From the IMG/VR virus record IMGVR_UViG_3300042542_004067, positions 1 through 25,534 of that record: a stretch of 25,534 bases of DNA. The stretch is one strand, 5' to 3'. Origin of the DNA: a virus. Shown piece by piece: positions 2,727 to 15,123 of the stretch. The position numbers were made by a program, and so were the translations under genes. Within the stretch, counting starts at the first letter, position 1; each line of letters begins with the position of its first letter. Below the pieces are notes generated by a model. That model was not told the DNA's origin, did no database searches, and was given only the letters and a program-made list of their open reading frames with translations.

Positions 2727-3206
2727 ATGATTTGTTACTTTTTAGTCTTATCCCTCTTTTCATCTTCGGATTCAATGGGATATACAAAAAAACTCGCACA
2801 AAGCACAGAATCCAGAATTGAAACCTGTTTATTGGTACATGAAGAGGCCCGCCGTCAAGAAGTCGATATTCTTCTTGCTTTGTCTATTGCATTCCATGAA
2901 TCCAAGTTTGAAAAAGATGCTATTGCTTCAGATGGTAAAGGTTTTGGAGCAATGCAAGCCACCCCTCGTTTATGGTGTGATAACAAGAAAAAAGAAAATT
3001 GTGATCTCATTAAAGCGGGTGTTACTGCTCTTAAACAATACCTAGTCATTCATGATTACAATGAAGCAAAAGCCGTTGAATCCTACGCGGGTAAAGGCAA
3101 AAAAGCTAAACAGTATTCAAAAAAGATCCTAAAACTAAAAAACAAAGCAACCATTATCATGGAGTCTATAAAGCATGAAACTATTGTTATCTTTAAAACA
3201 GAGTAA
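2727..3206 (+). CDS. Lysozyme-like lytic transglycosylase (SLT fold), probable endolysin
   Basis: A 159-residue protein with a hydrophobic N-terminus (MICYFLVLSLF), which looks like a signal peptide or signal-anchor, then an SLT-type domain: ALSIAFHESKFEKDAIASDG with probable catalytic Glu58, then GKGFGAMQATP, the usual G..G.MQ pattern of goose-type and Slt lysozymes, and later AVESYAGKGKKAKQY matching the family's YN.G tail. Two cysteines (about 84 and 92) could form a disulphide, which fits export. It probably cleaves peptidoglycan, either at lysis or, if virion-borne, at DNA entry. GGAG lies just upstream of the ATG. Its last 32 bases overlap the start of the clamp gene, so the two are co-transcribed. 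The short C-terminus past the domain (about 20 residues) is charged. Confidence 0.8.
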   Translation: MICYFLVLSLFSSSDSMGYTKKLAQSTESRIETCLLVHEEARRQEVDILLALSIAFHESKFEKDAIASDGKGFGAMQATPRLWCDNKKKENCDLIKAGVTALKQYLVIHDYNEAKAVESYAGKGKKAKQYSKKILKLKNKATIIMESIKHETIVIFKTE

Positions 3207-4260
3207 ACAAGCGCTTAAGAATCTTGTCAACATCGCTAAAACCACTAAACAACCAGATTACTTAAGTTTTGTACTCATTGAAGCAAAAGATGGGGTTATC
3301 ACCGCCAAGGCAACCAATTTACAAGCTTCTACAATCGAACTTTTGACCGGTGAAATTGAGCAAGAAGGATCATCATTACTTGAGTCTTCGTTCTTAGCTA
3401 AAATCGCATCACTAGACATCGATTTAATTGATATCTTTGTTGATGAAATTACACTACACGCGGAAGCAAAAGCAAAAAAGATCAAATTGATTCCCAAGGT
3501 TCTCAACCCAGATTTATACCCAAGCATTACCGCGGAAAATGGGGACTTTGTTAATGTATCTCTTGAAGATACTCAAGACTTGATCAAGATGATTAATGTT
3601 TGTACACCCAGCATTAGCACCGAAGAAGCAAGACCCAAATTAACAGGATTACTATTTGAAGCGGATAAGTATAGAGAGAATAGCCTTACGCTAGTTTCTA
3701 CTGATGGTCATCGTTTAACCCGTGTATTTACAGACATCAAAATTAATTTTGTTAGTGCACTAGTACCAAGAACCAGCTTATCAATGCTTATTAGCTTCTT
3801 GGCTTCTTCTGAATCCCTTGAAATGGGTATCTCAAAAGGCAATTTGATCTTAGTGGATAATAAAAAACGATTTCTTTTGATTCGCTTGATTGATGAAACT
3901 TTCCCAGAATACCACGCAATTATCCCAAAGAGAGATAATAAACTAAGACTTAAATTCTCAGAAGATATCAAGGATGCGTTTAAAACTGCTTCAAAGTTTT
4001 TAACTGATGATAAAGCAATCCATATTAAAGGGGATACAAAAGCAAATAGATTTAAGCTAGAAATCGATCAAGCTTTTGAGTTTTCCGAACTTTTAGATAG
4101 TGATGAAATCGATTACAAATCTTCTTTTAAATATGATTACCTATCTCTAGCCTTGGATAGCACGGATCTATTTTTTCATGATTATAGTGAAACAACCCCG
4201 CTTCTTTGTGAGTCGGATGATGCTAAAATAACTCAAATTGTTATGGCCAGAAGAAGATAA
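3175..4260 (+). CDS. dnaN: DNA polymerase III beta-type sliding clamp
   Basis: A 361-residue homologue of the bacterial processivity clamp, near the usual length of about 366. Family marks are RPKLTGLLFE (residues 153-162), STDGHRL (175-181), FPEYHAIIP (243-251, the FP.Y...IP motif of domain 3) and a C-terminus QIVMARRR in place of the usual ...MPMR. The three clamp domains therefore appear complete. Such a ring would hold a DNA polymerase, host or phage, on the template; the changed C-terminus and binding pocket may favour phage partners. A GGAG site lies inside the 3' end of the lysozyme gene, which overlaps by 32 bases. Most phages that encode clamps use T4 gp45-like versions, so a bacterial-type DnaN in a phage is less usual. 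No polymerase gene is seen in the window. Confidence 0.93.
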   Translation: MKLLLSLKQSKQALKNLVNIAKTTKQPDYLSFVLIEAKDGVITAKATNLQASTIELLTGEIEQEGSSLLESSFLAKIASLDIDLIDIFVDEITLHAEAKAKKIKLIPKVLNPDLYPSITAENGDFVNVSLEDTQDLIKMINVCTPSISTEEARPKLTGLLFEADKYRENSLTLVSTDGHRLTRVFTDIKINFVSALVPRTSLSMLISFLASSESLEMGISKGNLILVDNKKRFLLIRLIDETFPEYHAIIPKRDNKLRLKFSEDIKDAFKTASKFLTDDKAIHIKGDTKANRFKLEIDQAFEFSELLDSDEIDYKSSFKYDYLSLALDSTDLFFHDYSETTPLLCESDDAKITQIVMARRR

Positions 4261-8198: not shown

Positions 8199-9093
8199 GA
8201 TTAGCTACCATATATCTATAAGTATTCTTTAGATCCTTTAAATCTTGTTCCAGATTAACCCTAAGGTTTTCACTTCGTTTAAGAGAATTATAAGCAATCT
8301 TTGTTTCCATAGCTTCTATTTGCCCCTGTATTTCTCTTGTTCTTGGCTTCTCATTGCTTGTAATAATCAAATCTTTCAATGATTCTCCAAACACCGCGGT
8401 AAGCGCATGAGGGTAATACTGATATACCAAAGTTAAAACGCATCTAGCATAAATTTGAATTTCCAATTGTGCATGAGTATCTAAGCGCTGTTGTAAAAAG
8501 TGGATTAAAGCTTGTAAGCTTGGGGTCCAGATCATCTCAGTATACAAGCCTTGAGGAAGCAAAGCGCGCGCCTGTTCTTTGGCTACTCCATGCTTCAAAA
8601 GTAATTCGTATTCTGCATAACTTCTTAAATAGCTTGATCTATAAACTTCAAGTAGCATCGCTTCTTCTGATTCATCGATTAAATAACCTTCGCTACCTTG
8701 CTTATTTTGAGCGCTTTGCTTCCTTAGGCTTAAAGGATGCCAAAATGATTCAGCCCATTCTACATACCTCCCAGAAATTTCGTTTTCCGGTGTGTCTATG
8801 GGACTGCCTACCTTGTATTTTTCCCATTGTCTGGCTATGAATATGGGTAACTTTACATTTAAACTTATGAAACTGTGCCTAAATGGGGAAGTGTGCCCAT
8901 GCTGCCAAAGATAATTCACAAGCTTTTCTTCTTTTTCCGTCCATGTTTGCGCTTTCTTGCCAAAAGATACACGCGCAACATCTGCAATATCTAAATCTGT
9001 ACCAAGTACCGAACGAACACGAACAAAACCATCGTTAAAAACTTTGATTTCACTGATCAAACCGGATTCATTGTACACCAGTTGGGGAATCAT
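8191..9093 (-). CDS. thyX: Flavin-dependent thymidylate synthase with a divergent signature motif
   Basis: Converts dUMP to dTMP using FAD, NADPH and methylene-tetrahydrofolate. Family marks: DVARVSFGKK near 38, GHTSPFRH near 66, PIFIARQW at 83-90, NEISGRY at 104-110 with the conserved Ser107, and RLDTHAQLEIQ, equal to the dUMP-binding Arg region (LR.DSHAQWEIQ in Thermotoga ThyX). The signature RHR..S.NE.S.RY is altered: RHR is replaced by KYK and about five extra residues (PIDTP region) separate the motif halves. FEH before it is FRH. At 300 residues it is longer than the usual 220-250, with a charged helical C-terminal tail. Start ATG 9093 follows AGGAG and overlaps the RecU-like gene by 26 bases. 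Confidence 0.9.
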   Translation of the reverse strand: MIPQLVYNESGLISEIKVFNDGFVRVRSVLGTDLDIADVARVSFGKKAQTWTEKEEKLVNYLWQHGHTSPFRHSFISLNVKLPIFIARQWEKYKVGSPIDTPENEISGRYVEWAESFWHPLSLRKQSAQNKQGSEGYLIDESEEAMLLEVYRSSYLRSYAEYELLLKHGVAKEQARALLPQGLYTEMIWTPSLQALIHFLQQRLDTHAQLEIQIYARCVLTLVYQYYPHALTAVFGESLKDLIITSNEKPRTREIQGQIEAMETKIAYNSLKRSENLRVNLEQDLKDLKNTYRYMVANHE

Positions 9094-9619
9094 TTATATA
9101 TGCTCCTAGTATATCGGGGATCTCTTTTTGAGTACCTAGATAGCTAGTAATACGAAATTTAGCTAAATCCTCCAAATTTAAACTTTTCTTTTTTGTGTGT
9201 TTCCACTCGCTAAATGGGATCACAAAGAAACCCCCATCATCTATATTCAAATATAAACAAATCAAAGATAGATACCCCCAGCTATCCATTAAACTCAGCT
9301 CCTCAATTTGCTTTTCATTGAGTATTGCCAATGGTACATATTTAGAAGTACGCATCTTCATTTCAAGTAAACCTGATTTACCATTACGCAAAAATACTTC
9401 AAAATCCGGACCACTCGCACCCGTATGAATGCCTATGAATCTTGACCCGCTTAATGGTTTACCTACTCGTTTATATGGTTCATATCGTTTCTTTATATAT
9501 CCCATCCCTTTAGATAAATAATACTCCGAAACTTTGGTTATTACATCTTCAAATGCTACGCCCAATCTTTGCGAATGGTTACCCAGCATCTGCGCTTCTT
9601 TTGGTTCTTTGCTTCTCAT
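9068..9619 (-). CDS. recU: RecU-like Holliday junction resolvase (PD-(D/E)XK nuclease)
   Basis: A 183-residue protein with the RecU layout: an N-terminal helix RLGVAFEDVITKVSEYYLSK, a basic stretch YIKKRYEPYKRVGKP, then the nuclease core with GPDFEVF (Asp72) and LLEMKMRTS (Glu86, Lys88), PLAILNEKQIEEL like RecU's P...I..HQ, a strand LICLYLNI and FVIPFSEW. It would cut four-way junctions formed during phage recombination or before packaging. The fit is to family pattern rather than long identity, so a related RecU/penicillin-binding-associated nuclease variant is possible. It precedes thyX in the operon and overlaps it. The ATG at 9619 has only a weak AGAGAAA site; a second Met at codon 11 is an alternative start. 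Confidence 0.75.
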   Translation of the reverse strand: MRSKEPKEAQMLGNHSQRLGVAFEDVITKVSEYYLSKGMGYIKKRYEPYKRVGKPLSGSRFIGIHTGASGPDFEVFLRNGKSGLLEMKMRTSKYVPLAILNEKQIEELSLMDSWGYLSLICLYLNIDDGGFFVIPFSEWKHTKKKSLNLEDLAKFRITSYLGTQKEIPDILGAYINDSPTGVQ

Positions 9620-10061: not shown

Positions 10062-10318
10062 GGATTCATCCCGCTCCCATAGCAAAGAATTGTGTATGTT
10101 GTCATCAATCCAAGGATCACAAATACAAGGATACAATACGCTAATTCCAGACGGTCATAAGTCTTTGATTCTATCTTGAAAAAGTAAAGAAAAGGTACTT
10201 TGTTACTCACAATTGCCTTGGGTTGTGCTTTTTGCTCTTCTTGGCGAATTTGATTCACTGGTTTTACGGGTTTTACGATAGGATATAATCCACAATTGAA
10301 ATCTTTTTGACGACTCAT
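10055..10318 (-). CDS. Small single-span membrane protein, first gene of the minus operon
   Basis: An 87-residue protein from the ATG at 10318, chosen because AAAGGA precedes it at good spacing (the upstream TTG at 10348 has none). The N-terminal half is polar and rich in Pro, Lys and Gln (YPIVKPVKPVNQIRQEEQK); residues about 57-79 (LELAYCILVFVILGLMTTY) are one membrane span, with a short C-terminal tail. It is led by promoter copy C. Possible roles are an inner membrane effector, superinfection exclusion or a holin-like protein; sequence alone cannot choose. Confidence 0.7.
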   Translation of the reverse strand: MSRQKDFNCGLYPIVKPVKPVNQIRQEEQKAQPKAIVSNKVPFLYFFKIESKTYDRLELAYCILVFVILGLMTTYTILCYGSGMNPW

Positions 10319-10356
10319 TTTATTTATTTCCTTTGTTAGGGTGGTCAATTTCTATC

Positions 10357-10397
10357 AAAGTACAAAAGTTTTATAAGGTTGTCAATTATTTTTACAC
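10357..10397 (-). promoter_or_regulatory. Promoter for the minus-strand recU-thyX operon (copy C of the shared motif)
   Basis: On the minus strand TTGACA at 10385-10380, a 17-bp spacer and TACTTT at 10362-10357, 39 bases before the ATG at 10318. Upstream lies GTGTAAAAATAA, the same A-tract element as at 4271-4283 and 18924-18936. Confidence 0.65.
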
Positions 10398-10493
10398 TTT
10401 TAAAAAAGATTCATAAATGATAGGTTTACATAGTGCAATGAACCAATAAACCAATGAATCAATGATGCACTGATTCAAAGAAAGATAAAGAAC

Positions 10494-10874
10494 ATGGAAC
10501 CCCTACAATCGATTGATCCAACCTTGGAAACAATTAAAACCATCCCCCAGACTCAAACAGAAGTACACCAGCCTAAACAGGACATTGAAGCGCTGCGCGA
10601 ACTGATTCAAATCACTGGTAGCGTTCCCCTGTCTATTGCTATCGTTCTAGCTATGCTCTTTTATCGTACTCAGAAGACCAGCGCGCAAAGCTTACAAGAT
10701 ATCCAATATAAACAAGCCAAATTAGAGCATGAGATTTCTAATGTTAAACAAGAACTTTTAGAGATCAAAGATGAAATTGATTCTCATGCGAAGGTTAAAC
10801 TAGAGCTTCAAGATACTAAGGTTAAAATTGCCAGGATAGAACAAGCGCTTGAACTATTGGAAACTAAAAACTAA
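10494..10874 (+). CDS. Membrane-anchored coiled-coil protein
   Basis: A 126-residue protein with a polar N-terminal segment, one hydrophobic span at about 43-58 (SVPLSIAIVLAMLFYR), and a long charged coiled coil from about 66 to the C-terminus (QAKLEHEISNVKQELLEIKD). This topology occurs in phage holin or spanin-type and membrane-tether proteins, but none is proven here. The ribosome binding site is weak (AAGAAAGATAAAG). It stands alone, divergent from the minus operon, and is followed by the GTTAAGAT repeat region. The 5' leader 10432-10471 contains overlapping short inverted repeats (AGTGCA/TGCACT and GAATCA/TGATTC). Confidence 0.65.
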   Translation: MEPLQSIDPTLETIKTIPQTQTEVHQPKQDIEALRELIQITGSVPLSIAIVLAMLFYRTQKTSAQSLQDIQYKQAKLEHEISNVKQELLEIKDEIDSHAKVKLELQDTKVKIARIEQALELLETKN

Positions 10875-10896
10875 GTACCATGCTCAAATTTACCTA

Positions 10897-11478
10897 GTTA
10901 AGATTAAGTTAAGATTCAGTTAAGATTCCCTTTTTCAATCTTAACTTTGATGCTTTTTTACTATATTCAATTCTTCTTCTTATTTCGCTTCTTGGAAACG
11001 CATAAAAAATCACTTTGAATAATTTTGTAACATATTTTTACGATTATTAAAAAATTATGGGTTTTGCACCTTCTGAACCAGTTTCACATAAAATTTAGTT
11101 AAGATTGATCCTGTGTACCGAGAATCTTAATTCTATCTTAACTAAAAAATATCATTGTATTTCAATAACTTAGCTAGCTAGTTAAGATAATCATTTTTAT
11201 CTTACTTCAATCTTAACTTGAAAATTGTGACATAATATCAATACCTTAGCTTATGTTTAGTTAAGATTGATCTCTTTTTAAACGATTGGAATAGGAAATA
11301 TATATATATATGATACACATATATACACATGATACATATATATATAGGGAGCCAAACACCCCCTGAATCTTAATTATCTTAACACATAGTAGCTAAGTTA
11401 TTGATAATCCGTCATAATTTTCAATTAAGATCCTGTTAAGATTGGTTTTTGAGTACTTTTGAATCTTTTTATCTTAAC
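10897..11478. repeat. Iteron-like array of GTTAAGAT in both orientations
   Basis: The 668-base non-coding stretch 10875-11542 holds twelve exact copies of an octamer. GTTAAGAT starts at 10897, 10908, 10919, 11098, 11181, 11260 and 11435; its complement ATCTTAAC starts at 10938, 11135, 11210, 11376 and 11471. One-mismatch copies sit beside several of them (11124, 11199, 11367, 11424), so that many are pairs 11 bp apart (one pair 9 bp), i.e. on one face of the helix. The copies at 11098 and 11260 share TTTAGTTAAGATTGATC. Such spacing implies cooperative binding by a protein. Candidates are a replication initiator (iteron origin), the terminase small subunit encoded just downstream (packaging site), or a repressor. 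I saw no other such cluster in the window. Confidence 0.85.
11297..11346. other. Almost pure A/T segment inside the repeat array
   Basis: About 50 bases of alternating TA broken only by GATACAC, ACAC and GATAC, with a repeated unit (TATGATACACATATATA and CATGATACATATATATA). It lies between the inverted GTTAAGAT copies at 11260 and 11376. It would melt easily, as a DNA unwinding element does, and is also a likely bent or cruciform-prone segment. Confidence 0.6.
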
Positions 11479-11542
11479 TAAACTTGTTTCTTTGATCCAG
11501 AAGTTAAAAATTGTATCTTAGACCCAAAGGAGAACAACAAAA

Positions 11543-12094
11543 ATGAACCCATTGATTCCCAAAGAACATAGAAGCCAGATAGACGAGTACATAATAACAA
11601 GTGATCAATTAGAAGCTTTGCTAGTGGAACTAGAAGCGGGTACAGATTGGGTTACTGCGTGTACATTGGCGGATCTAACACCCAAGCAAACAAAAGCGCT
11701 ACAAAGTGATCTAGAACTTTACCTAGAAGATGAACTAGATGATCAACCAAGCGCATTCTTAGCTATGTACTATGTAAATAAGGCCTTGGCGCGTAGGAAT
11801 AAGAGATGGCATGATTTCGTTGAGCGTGGACAAGGGAAGCAATTTAACGCGGGTACTTGGCTTCTAGAGAGAAGAGTAGGTAAAGAGTATGCTGCACCCG
11901 TCCAAAAAGTGCAACAAGAGGTAAAGGGTGGGATGGTATTTGGAAGCGTGCATGAAGCGCTTGAGGCCACCAGATCAAAGCTTGGTATTGAATCTATAGA
12001 AGCGCAAGGGGACTATTGGGCAAAGCTTCAAACAGCCGTACAAACTCAAAAAGAATTGCCAAGGCTACCCAGTGAAGAAGAGGGGAAGAAATGA
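11543..12094 (+). CDS. terS: Probable terminase small subunit
   Basis: A 183-residue protein that would recognise the packaging site and load TerL. Evidence is moderate: an N-terminal helical region with a possible helix-turn-helix (DWVTACTLADLTPKQTKAL, about 35-53), then an oligomerisation-like segment containing NAGTWLLERRVGKEYAAP (103-118), which matches the W.LERR...E(F/Y) phrase common in small terminases, and an acidic-to-basic C-terminus ending PSEEEGKK. A clear site AAAGGAG precedes the ATG. It lies directly downstream of the GTTAAGAT array, as small terminase genes often adjoin their own recognition sites, and overlaps the methyltransferase gene by ATGA. The large subunit is remote. 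Another DNA-binding protein is the alternative. Confidence 0.6.
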   Translation: MNPLIPKEHRSQIDEYIITSDQLEALLVELEAGTDWVTACTLADLTPKQTKALQSDLELYLEDELDDQPSAFLAMYYVNKALARRNKRWHDFVERGQGKQFNAGTWLLERRVGKEYAAPVQKVQQEVKGGMVFGSVHEALEATRSKLGIESIEAQGDYWAKLQTAVQTQKELPRLPSEEEGKK

Positions 12095-12855
12095 GTTTAG
12101 AGATTAACCAAGTGCATCAAGGGGATTGTTTAGCATTGATGCCCAACATACCAGATAAATCGGTGGATATGATTCTTTGCGATTTGCCTTATGGTACTAG
12201 CTATTGCGAGTGGGATTCGATTATTGACATGGGGAAACTTTGGGCGGAGTATGAGAGAGTAATCAAAGATAATGGAGCTATTGTTTTAACAGCATCTTCC
12301 CATTTCACTTTTAAGCTCTGGCAAAGTAATGAAAAAATTTTTAGATATAAGCTTGTATGGGATAAGCGATTAAAGTTGGGGTTATTTGATGCCACAAAAA
12401 GACCAATGCGACAGCATGAAGACATTTTAGTCTTTTATAAGAAATCCCCATGTTACAATCCACAAAAAACAATATCTAATAAATCGTATTCACTAAAAGC
12501 CGGAAAAAAATTACATTGTGATTTTCAAAAGAATCCTATTTTTACACAAGAAAAAAAAGATGTAGTAACAAGATACCCATGCGATATTATACAAATTGAT
12601 TCAACCAAGTTAACAAGAGAAGGGGGGTTACACCCAACACAGAAGCCAGTAGCCTTATTTGAATACCTAATAAAGACCTACACGAATGAAGGTGATTTAG
12701 TGCTAGACAACTGCGCGGGGAGTGGGACAACAGCAATAGCCTGTATCAATGCAAATCGTCGCTATATCTGCATAGAACAAAATGAAGAGTATGTACGAAG
12801 ATCAAGGGAACGAATAGCCAACCATGAACCACTTTTGCAATTGATCCAGCCTTAG
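12091..12855 (+). CDS. DNA N6-adenine (or N4-cytosine) methyltransferase, beta-type order
   Basis: A 254-residue amino-methyltransferase with motif IV first (CDLPYG at 30-35, the DPPY variant DLPY) and the AdoMet-binding motif I later (LDNCAGSGTT at 206-215), which is the beta class. HPTQKP at 182-187 before it is the usual partner of motif I in this group. It begins in a four-base ATGA overlap with the putative terS, so it is co-translated. No restriction endonuclease is seen beside it, so it is an orphan methylase, likely protecting phage DNA from host restriction or marking DNA for packaging or replication. The target sequence cannot be read from the protein; GATC and GANTC are frequent in the window but this is not evidence. 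Confidence 0.9.
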   Translation: MSLEINQVHQGDCLALMPNIPDKSVDMILCDLPYGTSYCEWDSIIDMGKLWAEYERVIKDNGAIVLTASSHFTFKLWQSNEKIFRYKLVWDKRLKLGLFDATKRPMRQHEDILVFYKKSPCYNPQKTISNKSYSLKAGKKLHCDFQKNPIFTQEKKDVVTRYPCDIIQIDSTKLTREGGLHPTQKPVALFEYLIKTYTNEGDLVLDNCAGSGTTAIACINANRRYICIEQNEEYVRRSRERIANHEPLLQLIQP

Positions 12856-12956: not shown

Positions 12957-13781
12957 ATGTTATTCACTAAAAAAGAAGGCCTAAGAATTGGCTACGCTAG
13001 AGTATCAACAGAAGATCAAAGCTTAGATCCACAAATTGACGTATTAAAGCATTATAGTGATATTTGCTTCCAAGAGAAGATGAGCGCCACGAAAGAAAGA
13101 CCAGAATTACAAAAAGCATTGAAGCGCCTGAATGCTGGTGATACCTTGGTGGTTGTGAAGCTTGATCGCTTAGGTAGATCCGTGAAAGATTTGATTTCTA
13201 TTGTGGAGAAGATCAAGGCCAAGGGAGCGCATTTTAAATCCTTGGATGGGATCGATACTTCAAATTCTTATGGTACTTTTGTATTTCATATCTTTTCAGC
13301 GTTGGCCGAGATGGAATTGAATTTGATTAAAGAGAGAACCAAAGCGGGGTTAAAGGCTGCTAGAGCGCGCGGGCGTATTGGTGGACGGCCTAAAGGTGTT
13401 TCACTAGAAGGCAAAAGAAAAGCATTCGTAGTGAAATCTTTGTATGATAGCGGTGTATCGATTGCTGAGATTTGTAAACAGTGTGATACGTCAAAAGCTA
13501 CTATCTACAAATATTTGAGATTAGCGAATGGATCGCCAAATAGAGATACTTTAGTAAAGTGTGAAAAGAGTGGTTATATTAGACCCAATAGACAAAAAGG
13601 GTTATCTGAAGAAGCTCAAAAACAAGCGCAAGAAGTAAAAGCATTGTATGAACAAGGATTGCCACTTCTTACAATTGCCAAGAAAATAGATATATCTGTT
13701 TCTACGATATACAAGTATCTTAGATTCTTGAACATAGAACCCAATAGACCCAGATTCTTTGATAAGAAGGCAAAAAAATAA
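12957..13781 (+). CDS. Serine recombinase (resolvase/invertase type) with two helix-turn-helix units
   Basis: Catalyses site-specific recombination through a Ser-DNA link. IGYARVSTEDQS carries catalytic Ser17 and Arg14; VVKLDRLGRS carries Arg71 and Arg74; the dimer helix FVFHIFSALAEMELNLIKERT and AARARGRIGGRPKG follow, as in Tn3/Hin enzymes. The C-terminus has not one but two HTH units: SIAEICKQCDTSKATIYKYL (168-187) and LLTIAKKIDISVSTIYKYL (237-255), with a linker of about 50 residues. At 274 residues it is longer than the usual 180-200. Whether it inverts a fibre or effector segment, resolves dimers or integrates is unknown. GAGAG precedes the ATG; the stop abuts the next start. Confidence 0.92.
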   Translation: MLFTKKEGLRIGYARVSTEDQSLDPQIDVLKHYSDICFQEKMSATKERPELQKALKRLNAGDTLVVVKLDRLGRSVKDLISIVEKIKAKGAHFKSLDGIDTSNSYGTFVFHIFSALAEMELNLIKERTKAGLKAARARGRIGGRPKGVSLEGKRKAFVVKSLYDSGVSIAEICKQCDTSKATIYKYLRLANGSPNRDTLVKCEKSGYIRPNRQKGLSEEAQKQAQEVKALYEQGLPLLTIAKKIDISVSTIYKYLRFLNIEPNRPRFFDKKAKK

Positions 13782-14907: not shown

Positions 14908-15123
14908 ATGCTAGAAAATAGAGCATACATTGACACACTGCAAAAGCTTAGGGCGTATCTTTCTACACAAGGAAGGCAAGAGAATAACCATATCATCACC
15001 AGCTTGATCACAACCCTCTTAGAAATTGAGTATCAAGCGGTAAAAGAGAGGACTTTGTGTAATGAAAGAATTGAAACAAACGCGCCACTTAAGGCGAAGG
15101 TACAAGACTATAGAATTTATTAA
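14908..15123 (+). CDS. Small helical protein, 71 residues
   Basis: Start chosen at ATG 14908 because AAAGGA precedes it; the open frame extends to an ATG at 14836 without a ribosome binding site. Predominantly helical: YIDTLQKLRAYLSTQGRQENNHIITSLITTLLEIEYQAVKERT. The 3' 62 bases overlap the next gene in another frame. No family recognised. Confidence 0.6.
   Translation: MLENRAYIDTLQKLRAYLSTQGRQENNHIITSLITTLLEIEYQAVKERTLCNERIETNAPLKAKVQDYRIY

Follow-up and report, generated by a model that had tools for sequence, protein, structure and literature searches.

The satellite phage P4 has two separated cis regions, ori1 and crr, whose octamer-type repeats occur in either orientation, and its alpha protein is a primase, helicase and origin-binding protein. 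Short repeats are also found upstream of or within terS-type genes, as at lambda cosB and P1 pac. The origins of phage-inducible chromosomal islands (PICIs) always have two iteron sets on either side of an AT-rich region (PMC6092414). In the Staphylococcus aureus pathogenicity islands (SaPIs), repeats of this kind are bound by Rep and by the related Cch2; Rep does so through its C-terminal domain, and two hexamers appear to be involved (PMC7581432). Two initiator sites in one lytic phage are known from SPP1 (PMC5615212). Here we describe a non-coding element at positions 10875–11542 of a 25,534-nt stretch of viral DNA (IMGVR_UViG_3300042542_004067; the whole stretch is called the window), which is a fragment of the genome of an uncultured phage. 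The element is probably a tailed-phage replication origin whose iterons would be bound by a phage initiator. This reading is now favoured on three grounds: three related phages carry a second copy of the element ahead of a primase-helicase gene; in the window, the strand-independent GC skew changes sign no more than one gene away from the array; and the layout matches that of the published PICI origins (PMC6092414).

The octamer GTTAAGAT was found in 12 exact copies in the window, all of them within 10897–11478 (1.17 expected for the whole window; at most 5 in 100 shuffles), with 7 on the plus strand (10897, 10908, 10919, 11098, 11181, 11260 and 11435) and 5 on the minus strand (10938, 11135, 11210, 11376 and 11471). 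The 7-mer TTAAGAT has 15 of its 16 window occurrences in the array region, which also holds three one-mismatch copies, ATTAAGAT (11124 and 11367 on the minus strand, 11424 on the plus strand), and the 17-base context TTTAGTTAAGATTGATC is found twice, at 11094 and 11256. A first-pass annotation, made from the sequence alone, had reported twelve exact octamers (seven against five by orientation), near copies, two copies in a common 17-base context and a non-coding region of 0.67 kb; all of these were borne out on recounting, and the check that it had named beforehand, a count of the octamer in the phage genome, gave, for the window, no exact copy outside the array. Its statement that many copies form pairs 11 bp apart stands in part: exact copies supply two such pairs (10897/10908/10919) and near copies two more (11124/11135 and 11424/11435), and one further pair is 9 bp apart (11367/11376). 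Two features had been overlooked, namely the alternating order of the orientations and the quasi-palindrome formed by the whole region. The exact copies run +++-+-+-+-+- (9 alternations, P ~0.045), and the clusters mostly begin with a plus copy and finish with a minus copy. A scan made without a preset word put the maximum of inverted-repeat density in the window at the array (z 8.2), and the DNA folding z of the element was -6.8. The element is a large imperfect palindrome: oppositely oriented repeat clusters and inverted arms lie on the two sides of a TATATATA..GGGAG centre.

Relatives of up to 72 kb were found through a TerL query (G014 was found later), whereas direct searches of the viral collections with the window TerS-like protein and the protein encoded at 15062 gave no matches. 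The relatives G003, G004 and G005 have the gene order around the element in common. In these three phages and in G014 the element lies immediately 5' of a TerS-like gene and has the layout seen in the window, with diverged words: GTTAAGATC in G004 and G005, GTGATGAT/GTGAAGAT in G003 and GCATAAGAT in G014. The close repeat spacing in the relatives is 9–11 bp. When GTDB genomes were scanned, neither ThyX nor the TerS alignment pointed to a host or a prophage.

G003, G004 and G005 also contain a second copy of the element of about 340 bp, complete with clusters, arms and a TATATATA-type centre, immediately 5' of a gene for a protein of 1,108–1,122 aa; the same arrangement was found in contigs L081, L083 and L085. 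The protein contains an AEP-like motif (FIALDFDA; AEP, archaeo-eukaryotic primase), cysteine/histidine pairs and a Walker A motif, SANTKAAGKTTF, resembling that of superfamily 3 (SF3) helicases, and matches PHROG 19930 (DNA polymerase/primase) at 1e-11 to 3e-13, while Pfam gave nothing above its cut-off. Its structural model is poor overall (mean predicted local distance difference test score, pLDDT, 32), with a segment at about residues 750–850 that is winged-helix-like at modest confidence. From these motifs and the model, the protein reads as being of the AEP-primase/SF3-helicase type followed by a winged-helix-like segment. Caulobacter phage proteins resembling the helicase part (e.g. MZ574429.2) are annotated as PE-PGRS family proteins, which is probably a misannotation. 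In the second copy of G003 (L060:12587-12860), outer repeats with G-runs (GGGGGGATT, AAATCCCCCC) enclose inner pairs of GTGAAGAT, so that a single element can combine different words.

The raw cumulative GC skew of the window has its minimum at the array. Since raw skew can follow gene strand, the skew was instead measured at third codon positions and given for the plus strand, which takes out the transcription effect. Mean values were -0.15 for the 12 genes to the left of the array and +0.16 for the 19 genes to its right (Mann-Whitney p 2e-5), with genes of both strands on each side: the skew was negative in 10 of the 12 left genes, among them 3 of the 4 plus-strand genes, and positive in 18 of the 19 right genes, including both minus-strand genes. 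Of all gene boundaries, the one that splits the values best is a single gene away from the array (permutation p 2e-4); these p values are approximate because neighbouring genes are not fully independent.

The element is 668 bp long with 27% GC and is the largest gap between open reading frames (ORFs) in the window. Its left iteron cluster (10897–10945) holds the first three plus copies in 11-bp phase and the minus copy at 10938. The second cluster (11094–11146), which contains the 15-nt inverted repeat TTTAGTTAAGATTGA / TCTATCTTAACTAAA, consists of the plus copy at 11098, the near copy at 11124 and the minus copy at 11135, and the third (11181–11217) of the plus copy at 11181, a degenerate minus copy near 11199 and the minus copy at 11210. 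The left inverted arm (11123–11176) shows 76% pairing over 54 nt with the right arm (11390–11443), in which the near copy at 11424 and the exact copy at 11435 lie 11 bp apart; an inner left arm (11218–11251), the counterpart of the AATAATGTTATAGATCAATAACTTA arm of the relatives, shows 85% pairing over 34 nt with 11391–11424. Between the arms, one plus copy (11260–11267) lies to the left of the AT-rich centre (11298–11351), and the near and exact minus copies at 11367 and 11376 (together 11367–11383) lie to its right. This centre, a candidate unwinding region, has TATATATAGGGAG at its end (11339–11351) and a similar counterpart in the relatives. The last exact copy (11471–11478, minus strand) ends 65 bases before the TerS-like ORF. 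Rfam gave no match above a gathering score, and no tRNA genes were found. The second-largest non-coding gap in the window (10137–10493; 357 bp, 31% GC) contains, at 10455–10477 of the minus strand, a hairpin that resembles a terminator.

In 8 of the 10 genomes scanned, the exceptions being G009 and G011, inverted repeats reach their highest density at such an element or at a similar array, and the 12 elements tested had folding z values of -3.1 to -17.5 (lowest of 48 random windows, -2.9). The eight copies given to RNAalifold align poorly, and the consensus is therefore no more than a 9-pair hairpin; in this left hairpin, 4 of the 9 pairs show compensatory changes. The more distant G006 has an inverted array of its own, in which copies of AAGGTGTGTCACTT flank TATATATATAAGGAATAGGG and the centre is similar; two genes lie between this array and the likely terS, and an SF3-type protein (DUF5906, 3.7e-18) is encoded away from it. 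G007, G008 and G010 carry G-rich inverted-repeat regions. L007 and L008, considered as further arrays on the basis of exact paired-octamer matches, were rejected as they contain 2 and 4 copies only. In G010 (L046:2516-5335), an intein that carries a LAGLIDADG domain splits the large chain of ribonucleotide reductase.

The opposed iterons, the AT-rich region, the SF3-type gene at one copy and the skew flip fit a bidirectional origin. Several observations weigh against it. The window contig does not include a primase-helicase gene; since it is a fragment, the phage's own primase-helicase and any second copy would be unseen. The two copies in G003 differ partly in word (GTGATGAT against GTGAAGAT/GGGGAGAT), and a single initiator would therefore need to tolerate variation. 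The third-position skew flip is absent from G003, G004 and G005, and it therefore supports an origin for the window only. No SF3-type initiator was found in the searched ORFs of G007, G008 and G010, so that their G-rich regions may be unrelated.

The gene downstream of the element encodes a TerS-like protein (11543–12094, plus strand, 183 aa), with homologues 50–58% identical in G003, G004, G005 and G014 (for the first three, 50–51% across the alignment, with local matches of 52–55%). It bears on a pac or cosB-like packaging site, where a TerS oligomer would bind the iterons and TerL would cut the AT-rich centre, much as short repeats lie on both sides of the cleavage region beside pacA in P1 pac. 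The first-pass annotation had held this to be as likely as an origin, given a probable terS 65 bases past the last copy. The distance is correct, and the TerS-like gene is the direct downstream neighbour in all five close phages, the window included; the structural model, good for residues 1–86 only, has confident N-terminal helices compatible with a helix-turn-helix (HTH), and its helix 47–61 opens with TPKQ in the three GTTAAGAT phages and with TPKK in G003, which has GTGATGAT, a single change that is only suggestive. The identity as TerS, however, found no support in PHROG, Pfam or the PDB, the modelled structure had no PDB match, and the equal odds do not hold: packaging is the weaker rival because the second copy adjoins the primase gene, the same architecture being found there at a distance from terS in three relatives. 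Nor does packaging account for the two genes that part the G006 array from its likely terS, or predict the skew flip, and no retrieved contig was noticed to end within an element, no systematic scan of contig ends having been made. A packaging site is thus unlikely. A multi-site operator, on which a phage regulator would jointly control the promoters of the terS and primase operons, is also rather unlikely. Every element does lie immediately 5' of an operon, a promoter-like TTGACA-17-TATTTT was spotted by eye after the primase-side copies, and proteins of the types encoded at 15062 and 16216 are both found in the four terS-element phages tested for both; but the window has no excess of promoter-like sites (3 against 5.9 expected from shuffling), a quasi-palindrome of 250–600 bp with arms of 30–50 nt and an AT-rich centre exceeds the needs of an operator, and the strand-independent skew flip is left unexplained. 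The proteins encoded at 15062 and 16216, suggested earlier as binding partners, were not detected in G006, which has its own array.

It is improbable that the element acts by structure, as a cruciform or as hairpins of single-stranded DNA or RNA recognised by shape and not by the letters of the octamer. Self-complementarity is retained although the word varies, in G005 the arms pair within each copy even where the arms of the two copies differ, the folding z reaches -17, and the left hairpin carries compensatory changes. Template-switch correction of quasi-palindromes or homogenisation of the word would yield an equal pattern, however; the consensus of all copies is just 9 pairs, and within each array the word is highly exact, as protein sites are. 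A serine resolvase, which has two HTH segments in its C-terminal part, is encoded at 12957–13781, 1.5 kb from the array, and this raised the possibility of a res-like recombination site; the res reading was rejected as highly improbable because no resolvase homologue was found in G003, G004 and G005, all of which have the element, and the two distributions do not match (G007, G008 and G010, which are more distant, do have a homologue).

Under the preferred reading as an origin, the octamer iterons would be bound by the initiator, for which the most likely candidate is a fusion of AEP primase and SF3 helicase of the kind encoded beside the second copy in the relatives. As the iterons are oppositely oriented on either side of the AT-rich centre, two helicase assemblies would load face to face, melt the AT-rich TATATATA centre and start forks both ways. 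The repeat word and the DNA-binding surface of the initiator may evolve together, which would explain a constant layout with a word that changes between phages; co-variation of word and protein is suggestive, being based on very few sequences. We infer the binding, the melting, the bidirectional firing and the same initiator in the phage of the window, the contig of which is incomplete. A more speculative extension, which we consider doubtful, is that a family of full-size phages would use a matched pair of giant quasi-palindromic origins, the first beside the primase-helicase gene and the second beside the packaging gene. In these, self-complementarity and not the letters would be conserved, shape would contribute to recognition, and the copy at terS would couple replication to packaging.

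Upstream of the element, positions 10494–10874 (plus strand) encode a small protein that has a hydrophobic stretch and resembles a coiled coil at its C-terminus, and an ORF is present at the same place in the relatives. An N6/N4 DNA methyltransferase gene (12091–12855) adjoins the TerS-like gene in the window and lies near a DnaN-like gene in G003, G004 and G005, and, judged from these gene orders, it has changed position among these phages. The window also encodes a DnaN-like sliding clamp (3175–4260) and a RecU-like resolvase (9068–9619); the corresponding genes are adjacent in G007, G008 and G010, and in G007 and G008 the G-rich inverted-repeat region adjoins recU.

If the reading is correct, an origin type placed beside an AEP-primase/SF3-helicase gene and doubled at terS occurs in full-size phages and reaches beyond satellites, which bears on the source from which satellites obtained such origins. 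Related phages with differing words would be a natural experiment on initiator-iteron co-evolution, and the same set bears on why one phage retains two such sites. Lambda cosB and P1 pac differ from the elements described here, for which there is a second copy at a replication gene in three relatives, a strand-independent skew flip in the window, and a neighbour that is only TerS-like, its function as TerS being unconfirmed. P4, with ori1, crr and the alpha protein, is unlike these phages in being a satellite, and the parallel with the elements is one of layout. SPP1, with oriL, oriR and G38P, is a lytic phage that likewise has two regions for binding of the initiator (PMC5615212), but G38P is not a primase-helicase, and here too the likeness is one of layout. 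The PICI and SaPI origins share two iteron sets around an AT-rich region, an arrangement found in the elements of the window and the relatives, as well as an SF3/D5-type helicase (fused to a primase in some) and iterons that vary among related elements (PMC6092414, PMC7581432); an adjacent helicase gene of this type is indicated, by motifs and the PHROG match but with Pfam below its cut-off, at the second copy of G003, G004 and G005, and is absent from the window contig. In contrast, the PICI origin lies 3' of rep, whereas in these phages, of about 65–70 kb, the copies precede the primase-helicase gene and terS on the 5' side, have long inverted arms and, in three relatives, number two per genome.
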